Positions 9,688 to 64,000 of a DNA stretch of 64,000 bases are shown here, piece by piece. The stretch spans positions 1 to 64,000 of the forward strand of contig QCPC01000006.1 in assembly GCA_003212695.1 (NCBI GenBank). The letters run 5' to 3'. The first letter of the stretch is position 1. Every line of letters starts with the position of its first letter. The translations under genes were made by a program, and so were the position numbers. The notes under the pieces were generated by a model. That model ran no database searches. It had not been told where the DNA came from and was given only the letters and a program-made list of their open reading frames with translations. The stretch comes from Prochlorococcus sp. AG-436-C13 (lineage in GTDB: Bacteria > Cyanobacteriota > Cyanobacteriia > PCC-6307 > Cyanobiaceae).

Positions 9688-12159
9688 ATGAAAATATCCC
9701 TTTCTTGGCTAAAAGAACTTGTCGATATCAATACTGATGTAGAAGATATTGCCGAATCACTTTCAATGTCTGGATTCGAAGTTGAAGAAATAATTGACCA
9801 ATCATCCTTAGTTGATGGGCTAATAATAGGTTTCATTCGAGAAATTAAGGAACATCCAAACGCAAATAAGCTACAAATATGTACCGTAGATATTGGTAAA
9901 AAGGAATGCTTGCAGGTTGTTTGTGGTGCAAGCAATGTTAGAGAGAACATACATGTACTAGTCGCAATAGAAGGTTCCTATTTGAAGGCTATAGATCTGA
10001 AAATAAAGTCAAGCTCTATTAGAGGTATAGAAAGTAAAGGTATGATATGTTCATTAAGTGAGATTGGGTTGGAAGAAAACAGTAAAGGAATAGCAGTATT
10101 AGATGATCTATATAGCGATTTACCTCAAGTAGGAAGTTCACCAAATAAATTACTTGGACTAGACGAAGTGATATTAGATTTAGCAATTACTGCAAACAGG
10201 CCAGATGGAATGTCTATGATCGGTATAGCAAGAGAAGTATCAGCAATCAAAAAGGCTAAACTAACCTTACCTAAATGCACTTTTGACAAAAATGAGTATA
10301 CATTATTTACACCTAATTATCTTACAAACGAAATAATTGCAGAAGAAGGTATATATACAATACATTATATAGAGAATCTAGATGGATCAATTGAATCTCC
10401 AGATCACATAAAAACAAGATTAATTAATAGTGGCCTAAATTCTATAAATCTAATTGTAGATATAACTAATTATGTAATGCTAGAACAAGGTCAACCACTT
10501 CATGCATTTGATGCTGATTTACTAGATAAAATTTGCAATAAGAAAGTAAAAAATGATGATTTTGGATTTAGAAAAGCGAAAGAAGGAGAAAAGTTTAATG
10601 GTGTAGATGGAAAACAATATATACTTTCTGAAAGTGTTTCATTAGTTACTTGTTCTGATATACCTATTGCAATAGCCGGCGTACTGGGCTCACAATACTC
10701 TTCAGTTAATAATCAAACCAATAGAATATGGTTAGAATCAGCGTTATTTACTCAAAAATCTGTTAGGAATTCTTCTAGAGCTATAGGAAAGAGGACGGAT
10801 TCAAGTAGTAGATATGAAAAAGGTATATCATCTAATATCACGATAAGCTCTGCAAATCGTGCTATACAACTTTTACAAAAATATTTTAATTGTACAGTAC
10901 ATTTAAAAAGCGTTAATAAAGAGATAGATTATATAGATAAGCGGATTAAACTAAGAAAAGAAAAAATACAATCTGTCCTTGGTCAATTAAAAGTAAAAAA
11001 TAATGAAAATAGTATAAATAATAGTCATTTTAGAGATTTATCCAATGAAGAAATAGAAGAATCATTAAATCTACTAGGATGTGAAACTAATGCAATTAAA
11101 GAAGGCTGGTATGTAAAGGCACCATTAAATAGAACTAATGACCTCTTTAGGGAAATAGATTTCATTGAGGAAATTGCTAGATTGATTGGATATGATAAAT
11201 TTGATTCTAACTTACCTGATCCTATAAAACCTGGTGGATTAAATCCACAACAAAAGACGGAACGAAAACTTAGGAATTACCTTAGTTCAGCAGGTTTGCA
11301 AGAGGTAAATTGCTCTTCACTTGTACCAGAAAATAAAGACACTAATAATTATGTTTCTATTTCTAATCCTCTTTTAAAGGAGACTAATACTTTAAGAACA
11401 AACCTATGGGAAGAACATCTAAAGATATGCAAGAGGAATATTTCTAGTGGCCAAAATAGCTGTTGGATATTTGAAATTGGCAAAATATACTTTAAGGACA
11501 ATGATTTAATAAAGGAAGAATCTAAAGTTTCAGGATTAATAGTAGGAAAAAAATCATTAGGAAAATGGCATGATAAAAGTCAAAATAGCGATATAGAATA
11601 TTATGAAGCGCGAGGCCTATTAGAATCTGTATTTAAATCATTTAGCTTGAGCGTGACTGATAAGAAACTAGAATCTAACTTACTTTATCACCCTGGAAAA
11701 TCATCAAGCCTATTTTTAGAAGGCAAGAATTTTGGAACTTTTGGACAACTACACCCAATTCTTTCAGATAATGAGAATATGAATTATAAAGTTTTTTTAT
11801 TTGAATTTAAACTCGAACAATTACTCTTGGCTTGTACAAGAAAGAATAAACTAATAAAAATATTTAAACCTTATCCTATTGTTCCTTGCATGGAAAGAGA
11901 TATTTCTGTATTGCTTAACAAGGAAATAAGTTGTGATTCTATTAAAAATTTAATTTTAAAAGTAGGAAAGCCTCTCGTGGTAGATGTTGATTTGATAGAT
12001 ATATATAGCAGTTCTAATCTAGAAGAGGGTCAAGTAAGTTTGACATATAGGATTAAATATAGAAAATCAGATGATACACTTAGAGAAGAAGATATAAGTC
12101 CTATTCATGATATAATTCTTCAATCATTGTTCAAGTCATTTAAAGCCAGCTTGCGTTAG
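9688..12159 (+). CDS. pheT: Phenylalanyl-tRNA synthetase beta subunit
   Basis: Large subunit of the alpha2-beta2 phenylalanyl-tRNA synthetase. I chose the ATG at 9688 because the family N-terminus is MKISLSWLKELV; an in-frame ATG at 9664 would add eight unsupported residues. Visible parts in order are the EMAP-type tRNA-binding domain (about residues 40-150), B3/B4 editing region (about 200-400), the B5 fold, the catalytic-like core (TERKLRNYLSSAGLQE and following) and the C-terminal ferredoxin-fold anticodon-binding domain (PYPIVPCMERDIS). Its stop overlaps that of the convergent methyltransferase gene. Confidence 0.96.
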   Translation: MKISLSWLKELVDINTDVEDIAESLSMSGFEVEEIIDQSSLVDGLIIGFIREIKEHPNANKLQICTVDIGKKECLQVVCGASNVRENIHVLVAIEGSYLKAIDLKIKSSSIRGIESKGMICSLSEIGLEENSKGIAVLDDLYSDLPQVGSSPNKLLGLDEVILDLAITANRPDGMSMIGIAREVSAIKKAKLTLPKCTFDKNEYTLFTPNYLTNEIIAEEGIYTIHYIENLDGSIESPDHIKTRLINSGLNSINLIVDITNYVMLEQGQPLHAFDADLLDKICNKKVKNDDFGFRKAKEGEKFNGVDGKQYILSESVSLVTCSDIPIAIAGVLGSQYSSVNNQTNRIWLESALFTQKSVRNSSRAIGKRTDSSSRYEKGISSNITISSANRAIQLLQKYFNCTVHLKSVNKEIDYIDKRIKLRKEKIQSVLGQLKVKNNENSINNSHFRDLSNEEIEESLNLLGCETNAIKEGWYVKAPLNRTNDLFREIDFIEEIARLIGYDKFDSNLPDPIKPGGLNPQQKTERKLRNYLSSAGLQEVNCSSLVPENKDTNNYVSISNPLLKETNTLRTNLWEEHLKICKRNISSGQNSCWIFEIGKIYFKDNDLIKEESKVSGLIVGKKSLGKWHDKSQNSDIEYYEARGLLESVFKSFSLSVTDKKLESNLLYHPGKSSSLFLEGKNFGTFGQLHPILSDNENMNYKVFLFEFKLEQLLLACTRKNKLIKIFKPYPIVPCMERDISVLLNKEISCDSIKNLILKVGKPLVVDVDLIDIYSSSNLEEGQVSLTYRIKYRKSDDTLREEDISPIHDIILQSLFKSFKASLR

Positions 12160-13502
12160 TAAGATTTGAGGAAAGCCAAACATTCTATGTGCATTGTGTT
12201 TGGAAAGAAGTCAAATGTATGAATACTCTTAATAGTATAATTAGTATTATCTAGAATCTGTTTTAAATCTCTCGATAGAGTTGAAGGATTGCAACTAAGA
12301 TAAGCAATATTATTAGGTTTTCTAGTTTTAATCAAATTAATAATAGACTCATCTAATCCTTTTCTAGGAGGGTCAACAATTAAATACTGATCTTTCGAAA
12401 GAAAATCACATAGATGATGATAAACAGAGCCTGATATAAAAGTAACATTTTCTATACCGTTGATCTTTGCATTATCTAAAGCTAAAAGATGAGATTCATG
12501 ATTTATTTCAATACCAATTGTGCTTATACCTGTTACTGCAAGAGGTAGGGTAATTGTTCCAATACCAGAATAGGTATCTAAAATACTAACTACATTTTTG
12601 GAATGTAGAACATCCTGAATAATCTCATTAACTGCTTTTTCAGCCTCGATTAAATTTACCTGAAAAAAAGAGGTTATTCCTATCTTAAATTTCAAGCCTA
12701 GAAATTTTTCTATAATAAATGATCTACCAAACAATATCATTGATTCCTTACCAAAGATGCTGTTGGTATTTTGAGGCTGTAAATTATTAACTATCCCATC
12801 AAATAAGTTTGGTTCATTGTTTATAATAGTACTAACAAAGCTTTTGTCTTCTATTGTATACGAAGTAATTAAGATTAGAAGTATTTTATTAGTGTAGTTA
12901 GATGATCTTATACAGATATGCCGTAATGAGGAACATAAATTATTATCATCTATAATTGCTTTTATTGAGTTTTTTATAGAATAATCTATGCTTTCAGTTA
13001 GGATGGGACAGCTGTCAAAGGGAACTATGCTATGACTTTTTCTCTTATAGTATCCAAATTGAATCGTATTCTTACTAGTAATTGTTGCTGGAATTGATGT
13101 CTTATTTCGATATTTATAAAATTGCGCTGGAGGATGTATTTCTAATTCTGGAATTAATTGTAAATTTCCTATTCTTAGTAATTTATCCATTACGGAACTA
13201 ACCTTTAATTGGGAATGATATTTAGTATCTATATGTTGAATAGAACACCCCCCACACTCCTTAAATATTTGGCATTTAGGGATAGACCTCTTATGTGAGT
13301 AGGTTAAAACTTTAACTAAATCAGCAATCCAGTAGTTCCTTGCCTTATAAGTTACTTTAACTATCGCAATTTCTTCAGGTATTAGTCCTTGAACACGAAC
13401 AACTATATTGTTCCATCTACATATACCATCTCCGTTGATATCAAGATCAGTACATAAAACTTTTATTTCAATGCCTTCGCTTATTGTTGGTTCTATTTTC
13501 AT
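12156..13502 (-). CDS. rlmD: 23S rRNA (uracil-C5)-methyltransferase, RlmD/RumA type
   Basis: S-adenosylmethionine-dependent enzyme that methylates a specific uridine at C5 in 23S rRNA. An N-terminal TRAM domain (about residues 8-70) is followed by an iron-sulfur motif with C77, C83 and C86 in CQIFKECGGCSIQH and a further cysteine in FDSCP. The C-terminal half holds the SAM fold (LDTYSGIGTITLP), DPPRKGL and the catalytic SCNPSTLSRDL motif. At 448 residues it is full length. RlmD and RlmCD specificities cannot be separated by eye. The long non-coding region lies directly upstream. Confidence 0.9.
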   Translation of the reverse strand: MKIEPTISEGIEIKVLCTDLDINGDGICRWNNIVVRVQGLIPEEIAIVKVTYKARNYWIADLVKVLTYSHKRSIPKCQIFKECGGCSIQHIDTKYHSQLKVSSVMDKLLRIGNLQLIPELEIHPPAQFYKYRNKTSIPATITSKNTIQFGYYKRKSHSIVPFDSCPILTESIDYSIKNSIKAIIDDNNLCSSLRHICIRSSNYTNKILLILITSYTIEDKSFVSTIINNEPNLFDGIVNNLQPQNTNSIFGKESMILFGRSFIIEKFLGLKFKIGITSFFQVNLIEAEKAVNEIIQDVLHSKNVVSILDTYSGIGTITLPLAVTGISTIGIEINHESHLLALDNAKINGIENVTFISGSVYHHLCDFLSKDQYLIVDPPRKGLDESIINLIKTRKPNNIAYLSCNPSTLSRDLKQILDNTNYTIKSIHTFDFFPNTMHIECLAFLKSY

Positions 13503-13671
13503 ATAAGCTGCTAATCCAGAATAATCATTTAAAGTTCTCTTAGCTTTCTCATCCTAGACTCAGTTCTAGTCTAATAAGTATTCCATTCCGAGACAGTAAA
13601 GACTCGTCTTGGATATGAGAGCTGCAAAGTCAAAGGATATTTCTTGGAAAAAGGTATAGGCAATCTCATTC

Positions 13672-13701
13672 TAGTCTCATAATTAGTCTTAACCCTAGTC
13701 T
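13672..13701. repeat. Three TAGTCT direct repeats at 12-bp spacing
   Basis: TAGTCT starts at 13672, 13684 and 13696, each followed by six unrelated bases. Additional copies start at 13567 and 14108. The third copy is the left half of the palindrome AGTCTATATATAGACT (13697-13712). Regular spacing close to a helical turn is typical of operator arrays or iterons; the binding protein is unknown. Confidence 0.6.
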
Positions 13702-13885
13702 ATATATAGACTTATGGGAACAATATGGAGGGCTTCAACTTATGATCAAAGATCAACAATAAAAAAGGTGCTTTTTGTATAAATATTCAAACGAATGCTC
13801 CTGTTATTAATTAATTTTAGAGTGTTCTGCTTAAGTAACTAGCGATATTTAAATCAATCCTTATTAAATAAATCTAATAAGAGCC

Positions 13886-13928
13886 TTAACCCTGCGTAAC
13901 TGTATTTAATACAGTTACGCAGGGTTAA
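13886..13928. repeat. 43-nt perfect inverted repeat (21-bp arms, 1-nt centre)
   Basis: Left arm 13886-13906 (TTAACCCTGCGTAACTGTAT plus T) is the exact reverse complement of 13908-13928, around a single T at 13907. Symmetry stops sharply at both edges. As RNA it would give a very long stable stem. Neither strand shows a U-run after the stem, so it is not a standard intrinsic terminator. Confidence 0.9.
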
Positions 13929-14144
13929 AACCTCACTTGCTGCAGTCGATTAAGAGGAGTGATACTCGTATGGACAAGTAATGTCCAAAAATTAATTGAA
14001 TTAATCTATAATTTTGCATCTATGCATTGAATAACCAACTTGTATGAGCTTTCAATTTAAAATGCTTATTTTTTATATTTTCAAGTGTCTCAGTTAAGTC
14101 CAATAATTAGTCTATAGACGAGACTTACCCTGGATGGGTTAGAC

Positions 14145-14174: not shown

Positions 14175-15233
14175 CTATTTATTTTTATATAGATCTTTTA
14201 GAAGTTGATATGCTTCGTTTATCTGCCTCATTGACTCCGATGAACCTCCTGAGTCTGGGTGATTTGCTAGTGCCTTGGCCTTGTATGAGTCTTTTACTGA
14301 AGATAGTGAGATCATCTTTCCAGCTGTAGTAGGCATATCTAATAGCTTTAGTGCCCCATGAACTGTCATAGTTGATTGAAGTGTTTGAAAAGATGTGACA
14401 TTACTTCTCCTTTTAAAGCTATTCACGAACCTACGTATGAGAGTTGGAATTCTATTAATAAGGCTAATAGTTGCAAAGGGATCTTCGAATACTCCTGCCA
14501 TGACAACAATCCTCTCAAATGATGGTTTTGTTGTTTTCCAAGAAGAGCAAAACTTTGACATTAGTTTTGATGCTGCATGCCATGTAAAGGGTAGATTTTG
14601 AGTATCATCTATATTCGGCCATATTTCTCTTGCTAGCCAGATCATAGAAGCCTCTAGAACTTCTTCATTTGGTTTTTGTCCATATAACGAAAGCCAATGA
14701 TTAAGAGATTTAGACATACAACTTTTTACCTCTGAATCACTAATGCAATTAAATATAGAATCATAACTAGTATCTATATTATTAGTACGTCCTAAACTTG
14801 TTTTTAGACCTTCTGTTTTTCTGCTTACGAAACCTGGTAAGTTAATTCCTTTACTTTTAGTAATTAGTTCCTTTTCCTTGTTACTATTTAAATTAATAAT
14901 TTCATCAGAACTATAAGTAGGTTCTAGGTTATTCTTTGAAATTCCGGAACTTATTAGAACAATAGAGGTATCCTCTATATAATTATCAGTAGCTAATTTA
15001 TCTGAAATCTCTTGACTCTTATTTGATCCATCAAAAAGATTTTTATTTTCAGTGAGACTGTCAGAATTCTCCTTCTCATCGAAAATCTCTTCTAATAAGC
15101 GTTCAAGTACCGCACCTCTTCTCCTTAGGCCCCACTCCTCCTTTAATTGGTCAAAGTGATTAATTAATTCAATAGGTAGATCTACAGATATTCGTTTAAG
15201 ACCTTCTTTATCAGTTGGTGGCACAGACGACAA
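14175..15233 (-). CDS. Ribbon-helix-helix / J-domain fusion protein
   Basis: A 352-residue protein of unusual architecture. Residues about 12-50 (LKRISVDLPIELINHFDQL and following helices) look like a ribbon-helix-helix DNA-binding domain. Residues about 50-155 are polar and low in structure. Residues about 160-290 form a helical domain I do not recognise. The C-terminus (about 290-352) is a J-domain-like segment with the HPD tripeptide at 325-327 and a final helix INEAYQLLKDLY, so it could recruit a DnaK. This suggests a DNA-bound co-chaperone or a regulator controlled by Hsp70. Function unknown. Confidence 0.78.
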   Translation of the reverse strand: MSSVPPTDKEGLKRISVDLPIELINHFDQLKEEWGLRRRGAVLERLLEEIFDEKENSDSLTENKNLFDGSNKSQEISDKLATDNYIEDTSIVLISSGISKNNLEPTYSSDEIINLNSNKEKELITKSKGINLPGFVSRKTEGLKTSLGRTNNIDTSYDSIFNCISDSEVKSCMSKSLNHWLSLYGQKPNEEVLEASMIWLAREIWPNIDDTQNLPFTWHAASKLMSKFCSSWKTTKPSFERIVVMAGVFEDPFATISLINRIPTLIRRFVNSFKRRSNVTSFQTLQSTMTVHGALKLLDMPTTAGKMISLSSVKDSYKAKALANHPDSGGSSESMRQINEAYQLLKDLYKNK

Positions 15234-62135: not shown

Positions 62136-63365
62136 ATGGCCAGTAAAGTATCTTTGTCAGAATTAGTTTTAATGTCTATAAAAACATTAAAAGCTAATAA
62201 ATTAAGGACATCATTAACTATGCTAGGTATTATAATAGGCAATGCTTCTGTTATAACTCTTCTAGGTATAGGCAAAGGCGCTCAAAAGCTTGCATCTAAT
62301 CAATTAAGTAATCTTGGGGCAAATGTTTTATTTGTAGTTCCTGGAAATAATAATACAAGAAGAAGAGGTATAGCATTCCCTAGAAATCTAACCTTAAAAG
62401 ACTCTCAAGCTATTAGTCAGCAAGTACCTTCAATAAAAAAAGTAGCACCTCAGATTTCCTCTAGTGAAGTAATTCAGTATAAGTCTAGAAGTTTTAACTC
62501 AAATGTACTTGGAGTTACAAAAGATTTTTTAACTGTAAGAACATTTGACATTGCAAATGGTAGATTCATTTCAAATAAAGATCTTAAATCAGCAAGAAAT
62601 GTCGCTGTTATTGGTTCAGAAATAAACAAGGATTTGTTTACCAACAATGATTCAATTGGTAAACGTATAAGAATAAAAGACCAATCATTCAATGTTATAG
62701 GAATTATGGAGCCTAAAGGCGCTGTATTTGGGAGCAATCAAGATAAGAATATTTATATACCTTTAACTACTATGGTTAATAAAATAACAGGAAAAGATCC
62801 CACTTTTGGAACAAGTCTAAGCTTCATAAGCATTCAAGCTCTTAATCCTAATTCAATTAATGCTGCTAAGTTCCAAATTACAAATCTTTTACGTCAACGA
62901 CACAAAATAACTAAAGATGATGATTTTGCCGTTAGATCTCAAAAAGATGCTCTTTCAATAGTATCAACAATTACTGGAGGTTTAACCTTAATGTTAGGTG
63001 CTATAGGTGGTATATCCTTACTGGTTGGAGGTATAGGTATTATGAATATAATGCTTGTCTCAGTAAGCGAAAGAACTGAAGAAATAGGTCTTAGAAAAGC
63101 TTTAGGGGCAAGAGATGCTGATATTTTAATACAATTTCTTATAGAATCACTTATAGTATCAATACTAGGTGGAATTATAGGTACCCTTATAGGAGTTGGA
63201 TCAGTTAAATCTGTTGATTTTTTTACATCATTACCAGCAAATATAGAAACTAAAGTAATCGTATTCACAGTAACCTTATCAGGCTCTATTGGTTTAGTCT
63301 TTGGAGTTTTACCTGCCAAAAGAGCCGCCAAACTAGATCCTATAGTTGCACTAAGGAGTCTGTAA
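62136..63365 (+). CDS. ABC transporter permease, MacB/SalY type
   Basis: A 409-residue transmembrane subunit. An N-terminal helix (about residues 20-45, MLGIIIGNASVITLLGIGKG) is followed by a large extracytoplasmic MacB-like domain and three C-terminal FtsX-type helices (LMLGAIGGISLLVGGIGIMN; SERTEEIGLRKALGARDADI; ILGGIIGTLIGV; SIGLVFGVLPAKRAA). Such permeases export peptides or lipids together with an ATPase, which is not adjacent. It is 7 bases after pyk, so likely co-transcribed. Confidence 0.9.
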   Translation: MASKVSLSELVLMSIKTLKANKLRTSLTMLGIIIGNASVITLLGIGKGAQKLASNQLSNLGANVLFVVPGNNNTRRRGIAFPRNLTLKDSQAISQQVPSIKKVAPQISSSEVIQYKSRSFNSNVLGVTKDFLTVRTFDIANGRFISNKDLKSARNVAVIGSEINKDLFTNNDSIGKRIRIKDQSFNVIGIMEPKGAVFGSNQDKNIYIPLTTMVNKITGKDPTFGTSLSFISIQALNPNSINAAKFQITNLLRQRHKITKDDDFAVRSQKDALSIVSTITGGLTLMLGAIGGISLLVGGIGIMNIMLVSVSERTEEIGLRKALGARDADILIQFLIESLIVSILGGIIGTLIGVGSVKSVDFFTSLPANIETKVIVFTVTLSGSIGLVFGVLPAKRAAKLDPIVALRSL

Positions 63366-63481
63366 TGTAAAAATCCCGCAATTTAGATAACACTTTTATT
63401 GATTAGGAAGATATTCATTTGATTTTTCAACAGTTAGGGTATTTCCCCTTCTAGAATAATGAATATAAATTTGAACGGTAC

Positions 63482-64000
63482 ATGAATCAAAGATTTAAAT
63501 CACTTGCAATGTGGATAATTCCTCTCGTTATCTTGCTGCTTGTTACTTGGCAAATAGTCACAAGTGGAAATTCAGGATCCATCCAACAAACAAATAATTC
63601 TTCTGCTGTTACTAGGAACGCGGCTGTATCAAGAATGAGTTATGGAAGATTTATAGACTATATAGACTCTGGCAGAGTTACTTCTGTAGACATATTCGAT
63701 GGAGGAAGAAATGCTGTTGTTGAAGCAGTAGAACCAGATTTAGATAATAGAGTTCAAAGAATAAGAGTTGATCTTCCAGGACTTACACCCGAACTTATAG
63801 AAAGACTAAAAAAAGAAGGTATTAGTTTTGATATTCACCAACCCAAAACTGCTCCTGCTGGAGCTGGATTTTTAGGCAGCTTAATCTTCCCAGCATTCTT
63901 AATATTGGGCCTTGTATTACTAGCCAGAAGGTCAAACTCTATGCCAGGAGGACCAGGACAAGCAATGCAATTTGGAAAAACAAAAGCAAGATTTGCAATG
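63482..64000 (+). CDS. ftsH: FtsH metalloprotease, N-terminal part (runs off window)
   Basis: The gene starts with ATG at 63482 and is open to the right edge, giving 173 residues. An N-terminal membrane helix (about residues 7-23), the thylakoid/periplasmic FtsH extracytoplasmic domain (MSYGRFIDYIDSGRVTSVDI and ERLKKEGISFDIHQP) and a second helix (LGSLIFPAFLILGLVLLARR) are followed by the FGKTKARFAM segment that precedes the AAA module. The ATPase and protease domains lie beyond the window. It probably has its own promoter in the 116-base gap after the MacB-type gene. Confidence 0.93.
   Translation, partial: MNQRFKSLAMWIIPLVILLLVTWQIVTSGNSGSIQQTNNSSAVTRNAAVSRMSYGRFIDYIDSGRVTSVDIFDGGRNAVVEAVEPDLDNRVQRIRVDLPGLTPELIERLKKEGISFDIHQPKTAPAGAGFLGSLIFPAFLILGLVLLARRSNSMPGGPGQAMQFGKTKARFAM

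Follow-up and report, generated by a model that had tools for sequence, protein, structure and literature searches.

The 43-nt palindrome at positions 13,886–13,928 of the window, which is the whole 64-kb stretch of DNA analysed here, contains a core that is almost certainly part of a conserved replication-terminus element of the Prochlorococcus/Synechococcus/Cyanobium family. We propose that this core is that of a tyrosine-recombinase site with putative recombination activity, the dif equivalent of the family, and give this reading a probability of about 0.62. According to this model, two subunits of a tyrosine recombinase, bound to the inverted half-sites GCGTANCTG, would cleave the DNA within the 9-bp centre, with the phased TGTCCA repeats beside the core serving as arm-type or accessory sites that would set the geometry of this complex. 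A chromosome dimer would then be resolved by recombination between two copies of the site, yielding monomers. The most likely enzyme would be a conserved tyrosine recombinase of about 390 residues, encoded beside a ferrochelatase-like gene. A further protein, termed RHH-J, probably binds phased AGTCT boxes, its putative ligand, on both sides of the core, and could thereby form a ParR- or MatP-like nucleoprotein complex at the terminus.

Prediction of dif failed in 5 of 5 Cyanobacteria according to the relevant part of Kono et al. (2011; PMC3025954), and a passage of a 2019 genome paper (PMC6416890) likewise states that no dif was predicted in cyanobacteria; xerC is called rare in this phylum in a passage of PMC5101192. 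This failure of dif prediction bears on the question of how these very abundant phototrophs resolve chromosome dimers. A search of the open-licence literature found no description of the present terminus element, which offers for picocyanobacterial dimer resolution a precise sequence together with candidates for the enzyme and for a partner protein.

The window is a contig of G000, a low-GC picocyanobacterial draft genome of 1.55 Mb that is 79% complete. As the preliminary description had observed, the palindrome is exact and non-coding, with 21-nt arms around a 1-nt centre. It occupies a 672-bp gap between two minus-strand ORFs, at 12,156–13,502 and 14,175–15,233. The former is rlmD, encoding the 23S rRNA m5U1939 methyltransferase, a neighbour outside the element whose place is taken by pheT in other genera; the latter encodes RHH-J. 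Within the 64 kb, the palindrome is the sole perfect inverted repeat whose arms exceed 12 nt when loops are limited to 20 nt, and the number of 21-nt arms expected in the window from base composition is about 4e-6. Chance is ruled out by this expectation together with the presence of the core across family genomes, and an assembly artefact by the relatives that carry the core at the same place. In G007, from the same genus as the window, a matching stem with a different centre lies in the same gap. The search for further copies, which the preliminary description had recommended, returned none in G000 as far as this draft extends, and a known repeat family is excluded by this single copy. A phage origin was also rejected, given that the exact 21-mer arm, the only query used, had no match in viral_contigs.

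Comparison of the family revealed that the conserved part of the palindrome is a core at 13,893–13,921 on the minus strand, in which two inverted half-sites TGCGTAACTG surround a 9-bp centre. Allowing at most three mismatches, the pattern TGCGTAACTG-N9-CAGTTACGCA is found in 226 of 400 family genomes and 35 of 59 genera, usually as one copy each, compared with 5 of 400 genomes for the reversed-pattern control. Most matching genomes thus hold a single core match. Its short centre, with 9 bp between the conserved words, is enclosed by an inverted pair of half-sites that are putatively bound by a recombinase. Variation of the half-sites is mainly of the form GCGTA[A/C/T]CTG. When a strict core pattern was searched for in 17 genomes, 15 from outside the family and two of genus g9, one of them gave a hit, a result that counts against the dif reading. 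For the detailed comparison we collected 57 loci, of which 49 were counted: we first excluded seven that have no RHH-J (L038 and L044, near contig ends, and L089, L093, L095, L097 and L100, which are extra copies), and then L045 as a duplicate of L013. These loci are related and share part of their gene order, and the counts below are therefore not independent events.

In 22 of 23 genomes, the site and dnaN are separated by 0.45–0.50 of the chromosome length, distances that are based on exact sizes for 12 genomes and rounded sizes for 11. Analysis of GC skew at fourfold sites placed it at the replication terminus. Among 20 sampled stretches of G002, the 10 before the site all had positive skew, and 8 of the 10 beyond it had negative skew; the noisier profile of G155 was positive in 9 of 10 and negative in 7 of 10, respectively. 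The positional outlier is G105, at 0.33, where the site is found 802 kb into 2.41 Mb. Of the stretches sampled there, 6 of the 7 up to 748 kb have positive skew, and all 13 from 846 kb onwards have negative skew (two near zero). The skew switch of G105 is displaced along with the site, indicating that the site tracks the replichore junction rather than the midpoint of the chromosome. A location at the terminus, where the skew switches, is that of a dif site.

In these respects the element resembles dif/XerCD, the single-recombinase systems difSL/XerS and difH/XerH and archaeal dif/XerA, which usually occur in one copy at the replication terminus and combine inverted half-sites around a short centre with a conserved cellular tyrosine recombinase. 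It differs from them in the 9 bp between the conserved words, in having phased TGTCCA repeats at a distance of 49 bp and in the adjoining RHH-J gene and box arrays, as well as in a recombinase of about 390 aa that matches the XerA, XerS and XerD models only weakly. Compared by eye with the 28-bp bacterial dif consensus, the half-sites show no clear resemblance. A dif site requires a centre that is asymmetric, or else accessory geometry, and the near symmetry of the present core counts against the dif reading; the conservation of the half-sites as words, though often not mutually complementary, counts in its favour.

Phage_integrase matches were found in 16 of 16 genomes, five of which (G002, G004, G012, G066 and G074) have exactly one. 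The single match in all five is the same conserved recombinase, which is thus the only tyrosine-recombinase candidate in those genomes. In the four genomes in which it was read, the protein has 388–390 residues, and the Arg, Lys, YxxRH, GH and Tyr motifs, known in this enzyme family for their catalytic roles, are invariant. Its gene lies beside one read as ferrochelatase in G000, G002 and G029, a neighbour not seen in the G066 stretch. The protein matches 4a8e, a solved XerC-like recombinase, with an E value of 0.00056, and aligns weakly with the island integrases in hhalign (probabilities of 2% and 5.5%), which counts against the dif reading. A Pfam search matched no arm-binding domain in it; our own reading of the sequence is that it carries one. 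This recombinase family is present in 232 of 251 family genomes, including 164 of the 167 near-complete ones. Across the class, with the family counted in, 97 of 134 near-complete genomes have it, a range wider than that of the core, which counts against the dif reading. Two genomes of more than 90% completeness, G060 and G084, are without strong RHH-J, core and recombinase alike, and genus g9 (for example G021 and G194) has kept the recombinase with no strong RHH-J or core. The recombinase alone in g9, along with the confinement of RHH-J to the family, makes it doubtful that core and recombinase are simply paired one to one. We infer that the conserved recombinase is likely the enzyme of the site. 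In several drafts of the genus of the window, the recombinase match contains one internal stop codon (TAA in G010, G009, G013, G006, G008 and G011; TGA in G001), which may be the gene end or real.

Outside the palindrome, a TGTCCA repeat with at most one mismatch starts between −57 and −53 from the core in 47 of 49 loci, as oriented by RHH-J; in the window it is found at −55 on the minus strand (13,971–13,976). A second TGTCCA lies 11 bp further, at −66, in many loci, and 22–24 bp further in others. Locus comparison assigns this second position to 13,982–13,987 of the window, where the repeat is degenerate and reads TGGACA in the same orientation. A 400-kb sample of G002 contains no TGTCC-N6-TGTCC arrangement. 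A core with phased arm-type repeats at a fixed distance is typical of the bipartite attachment sites of tyrosine integrases, which the element also resembles in its inverted core half-sites and in the matching copies beside integrases. Unlike such attachment sites, the terminus copy has no adjacent integrase and keeps one locus across the family, and its arms are about 25 bp closer to the core. Between arms and core, the oriented loci have weakly conserved A/T positions at about −30 to −8 (AA at −30/−29 and TT at −9/−8), which suggests a further element there.

The core lies 250–919 bp past the 3' end of the gene for RHH-J, a family that adjoins the site in 50 of 57 loci and is present in 14 of 14 family genomes but, elsewhere in the class, in 0 of 131. 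In the window this gene (14,175–15,233, minus strand) encodes 352 residues, consisting of an N-terminal part like a ribbon-helix-helix, a helical middle part and a C-terminal J-domain-like part. The RHH_1 model scores above its cut-off in the L013 protein and has no match in the window protein, and structure prediction from two sequences gave a mean pLDDT of 49. A box scan revealed AGTCT/AGACT boxes flanking the core on both sides: two of them, 12 bp apart, lie between RHH-J and the core (14,109–14,125), and an array on the far side extends over 13,556–13,712, with starts at 13,556, 13,568, 13,600, 13,673, 13,685, 13,697 and 13,708. Box spacings peak at 12, 11, 23–24, 32, 35 and 44 bp, and 341 box pairs fall within 60 bp of each other versus 8.7 in shuffles. 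In G002, the eight boxes in the 760 bp after RHH-J equal the maximum among 1020 sampled windows. No AGTCT box was found upstream of RHH-J in the window analysed here, the second densest AGTCT/AGACT cluster of which is at 63,241–63,920, with five boxes in 680 bp.

An RHH protein gene next to phased short repeats, with putative binding, is reminiscent of ParR/parC and MatP/matS, MatP being an RHH protein of the terminus. The site might accordingly serve terminus organisation or partition, with RHH-J or another protein binding the palindrome and the boxes in a MatP- or ParR-like manner and no recombination involved. The linkage of RHH-J to the site, its confinement to the family and the 11–12-bp phasing of the boxes all speak for such a role. 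However, RHH-J is missing and boxes are few where the core and its TGTCC arms recur, in some cases beside integrases, and RHH proteins normally read short repeats, not a 29-bp palindrome. RHH-J further differs from ParR and MatP in its J-like domain, in the AGTCT/AGACT sequence of the boxes and in their single cluster as against many matS sites. We consider this explanation unlikely. Elsewhere in G000, contig C10 encodes a 61-aa stand-alone RHH protein (L221:2685–2870, minus strand) that closely resembles the corresponding part of RHH-J. The ORF after it (L221:1676–2602, minus strand) looks by eye like the C-terminal half of a DnaB-type helicase; together they are possibly a mobile element that has the RHH domain in common with RHH-J. 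The stretches examined around this stand-alone RHH gene and around the integrases of G000:C3 contain neither a core nor a TGTCC pair.

More than one core match occurs in 11 of 23 genomes, a set partly chosen for extra copies. We examined 16 extra copies, eight of which (L114:9827, L115:572, L115:10026, L117, L119, L212, L213 and L214) have phased TGTCC(A) repeats at about −80/−91. Two of these, L115:572 and L213:5014, are 460–470 bp from the start of intact integrases that are 51% identical to each other, and L114:9827 lies beside an integrase fragment. Another integrase is 3.2 kb from L214:5094 and one is 6.7 kb from L119; none was found near L117 or L212. In the other eight copies (L116, L118, L120, L121 and L215–L218) the arm pair is absent or partial, and some of them may be chance matches. 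The five extra copies in which AGTCT boxes were counted have 0–3 each. With so few boxes at extra copies, the recombination and RHH-J modules are separable. The terminus copy itself adjoins RHH-J and rlmD or pheT, and adjacency to an integrase is found at some of the extra copies instead.

The shared architecture of the terminus site and the copies next to integrase genes would also be expected of a domesticated or relic attachment site, that is, the place where an ancient integrative element inserted near the terminus, or the scar it left, now fixed and only an attB. This origin is quite improbable, since the arm spacing is consistently different (−55/−66 versus about −80/−91), and a relic would need neither to persist in 35 of 59 genera nor to sit at the skew switch, as it does in the three genomes sampled. 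A tentative proposal is that of a new kind of chromosome terminus element: a lambda-style bipartite site, with inverted core and phased arm repeats as in the island attachment design, might have become the picocyanobacterial dimer-resolution site, wrapped in an RHH-J array, and the J-like domain may recruit DnaK to dismantle the complex.

Three further observations concern the extra copies. In G202, L114:9827, L115:572 and L115:10026 lie about 10 kb apart within 1.026–1.046 Mb, two in the same orientation and one inverted, as if they were attachment sites bounding stacked elements. At L116:8756, L118:9274 and L217:2178, and less so at L216:2900, all without a phased arm pair and from different genera, TGTCC directly precedes a palindrome with a TCACTG half-site; these palindromes are perhaps another class of site. 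Matches to the glutamine-II riboswitch (L118:10133–10193 and L115:7722–7777) lie a few kilobases from extra copies.

The full 43-nt palindrome of the window consists of the core and 7-bp outer arms, whose sequence is specific to the lineage. Comparison across loci shows no sequence conservation of the outer arms, yet they pair over at least 7 bp in 8 of 49 loci versus 0 of 2352 cross-locus controls. The exact 43-nt symmetry is thus a local extension of the core by lineage-specific outer arms, and perfection over 43 nt was dropped as the conserved trait. The earlier suggestion that perfect arms may be under selection holds for the 10-bp half-sites, which are conserved, and fails for the outer arms that give the perfection. 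Hairpin selection and template switching are candidate drivers of the outer-arm pairing.

Such pairing, longer than chance in some lineages, and a very stable fold when the palindrome, the strongest perfect hairpin of the window, is modelled as RNA (z = −7.3) are what a structured RNA or transcription element would offer, be it the stem of a non-coding RNA, an RNase III site or a bidirectional terminator. Against this, only 29 of 49 loci have identical 10-bp core halves, and those of the other 20 differ, mostly at one position; 31 of 490 cells between the halves are unpaired, 13 of them at one position. Halves that are often not complementary, mostly at one position, fit two protein half-sites and not an RNA stem, and conserved words at fixed spacing lie outside the stem. 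Furthermore, no Rfam covariance model matched at the palindrome. Its abrupt ends and lack of a U-run, both pointed out in the preliminary description, were upheld by eye. A loose terminator scan flags the minus strand, where the tail CTCTTATTAG is no clean T-run; a GC-rich stem followed by a T-run was not found, in agreement with the doubt already voiced about an intrinsic terminator. An RNA role is therefore highly improbable, and the RNA options raised at the outset lose ground to the dif-like or recombination site listed beside them, which is favoured by the terminus position, the single copy, the half-site conservation, the phased arms and the integrase-adjacent copies. A replication fork barrier of the Ter/RTP type, fixing where forks meet, would account for a site at the skew switch even where the switch is displaced, but it is hardly credible for a single-copy, near-symmetric site, given that known fork traps are polar and paired, and it leaves the integrase-linked copies unexplained.

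The pattern TGCGTAACTG-N9-CAGTTACGCA has no match among the entries of genus g17, which we take from its genome sizes to be the high-light Prochlorococcus clade; RHH-J is present in nearly all of these entries. All seven g17 loci examined have a diverged core at the same place, mostly GTACTG-N9-CAGTACTA, accompanied by TGTCC at −55 in 7 of 7 and also at −66 in 6 of 7. In G182 (1,657,990 bp), presumably MED4, the core is at 829,207–829,221, with TGTCC at −66 and −55. A passage of a reanalysis of MED4 vesicle DNA (PMC10913375; reads SRR1013844 and SRR1013875) reports for the ter window of 826,000–832,000 that the highest peak is 'directly at the dif site'. The passage, which gives no dif sequence, draws such sites 'from the literature', for Prochlorococcus apparently from Biller et al. 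2014, and a dif position in MED4 has thus already been assumed in print (PMC10913375). The G182 core, at 829.2 kb, falls inside this 826–832 kb peak region reported for MED4 (PMC10913375). If the dif reading is true, the terminus enrichment of DNA in Prochlorococcus vesicles would be tied to a defined sequence.
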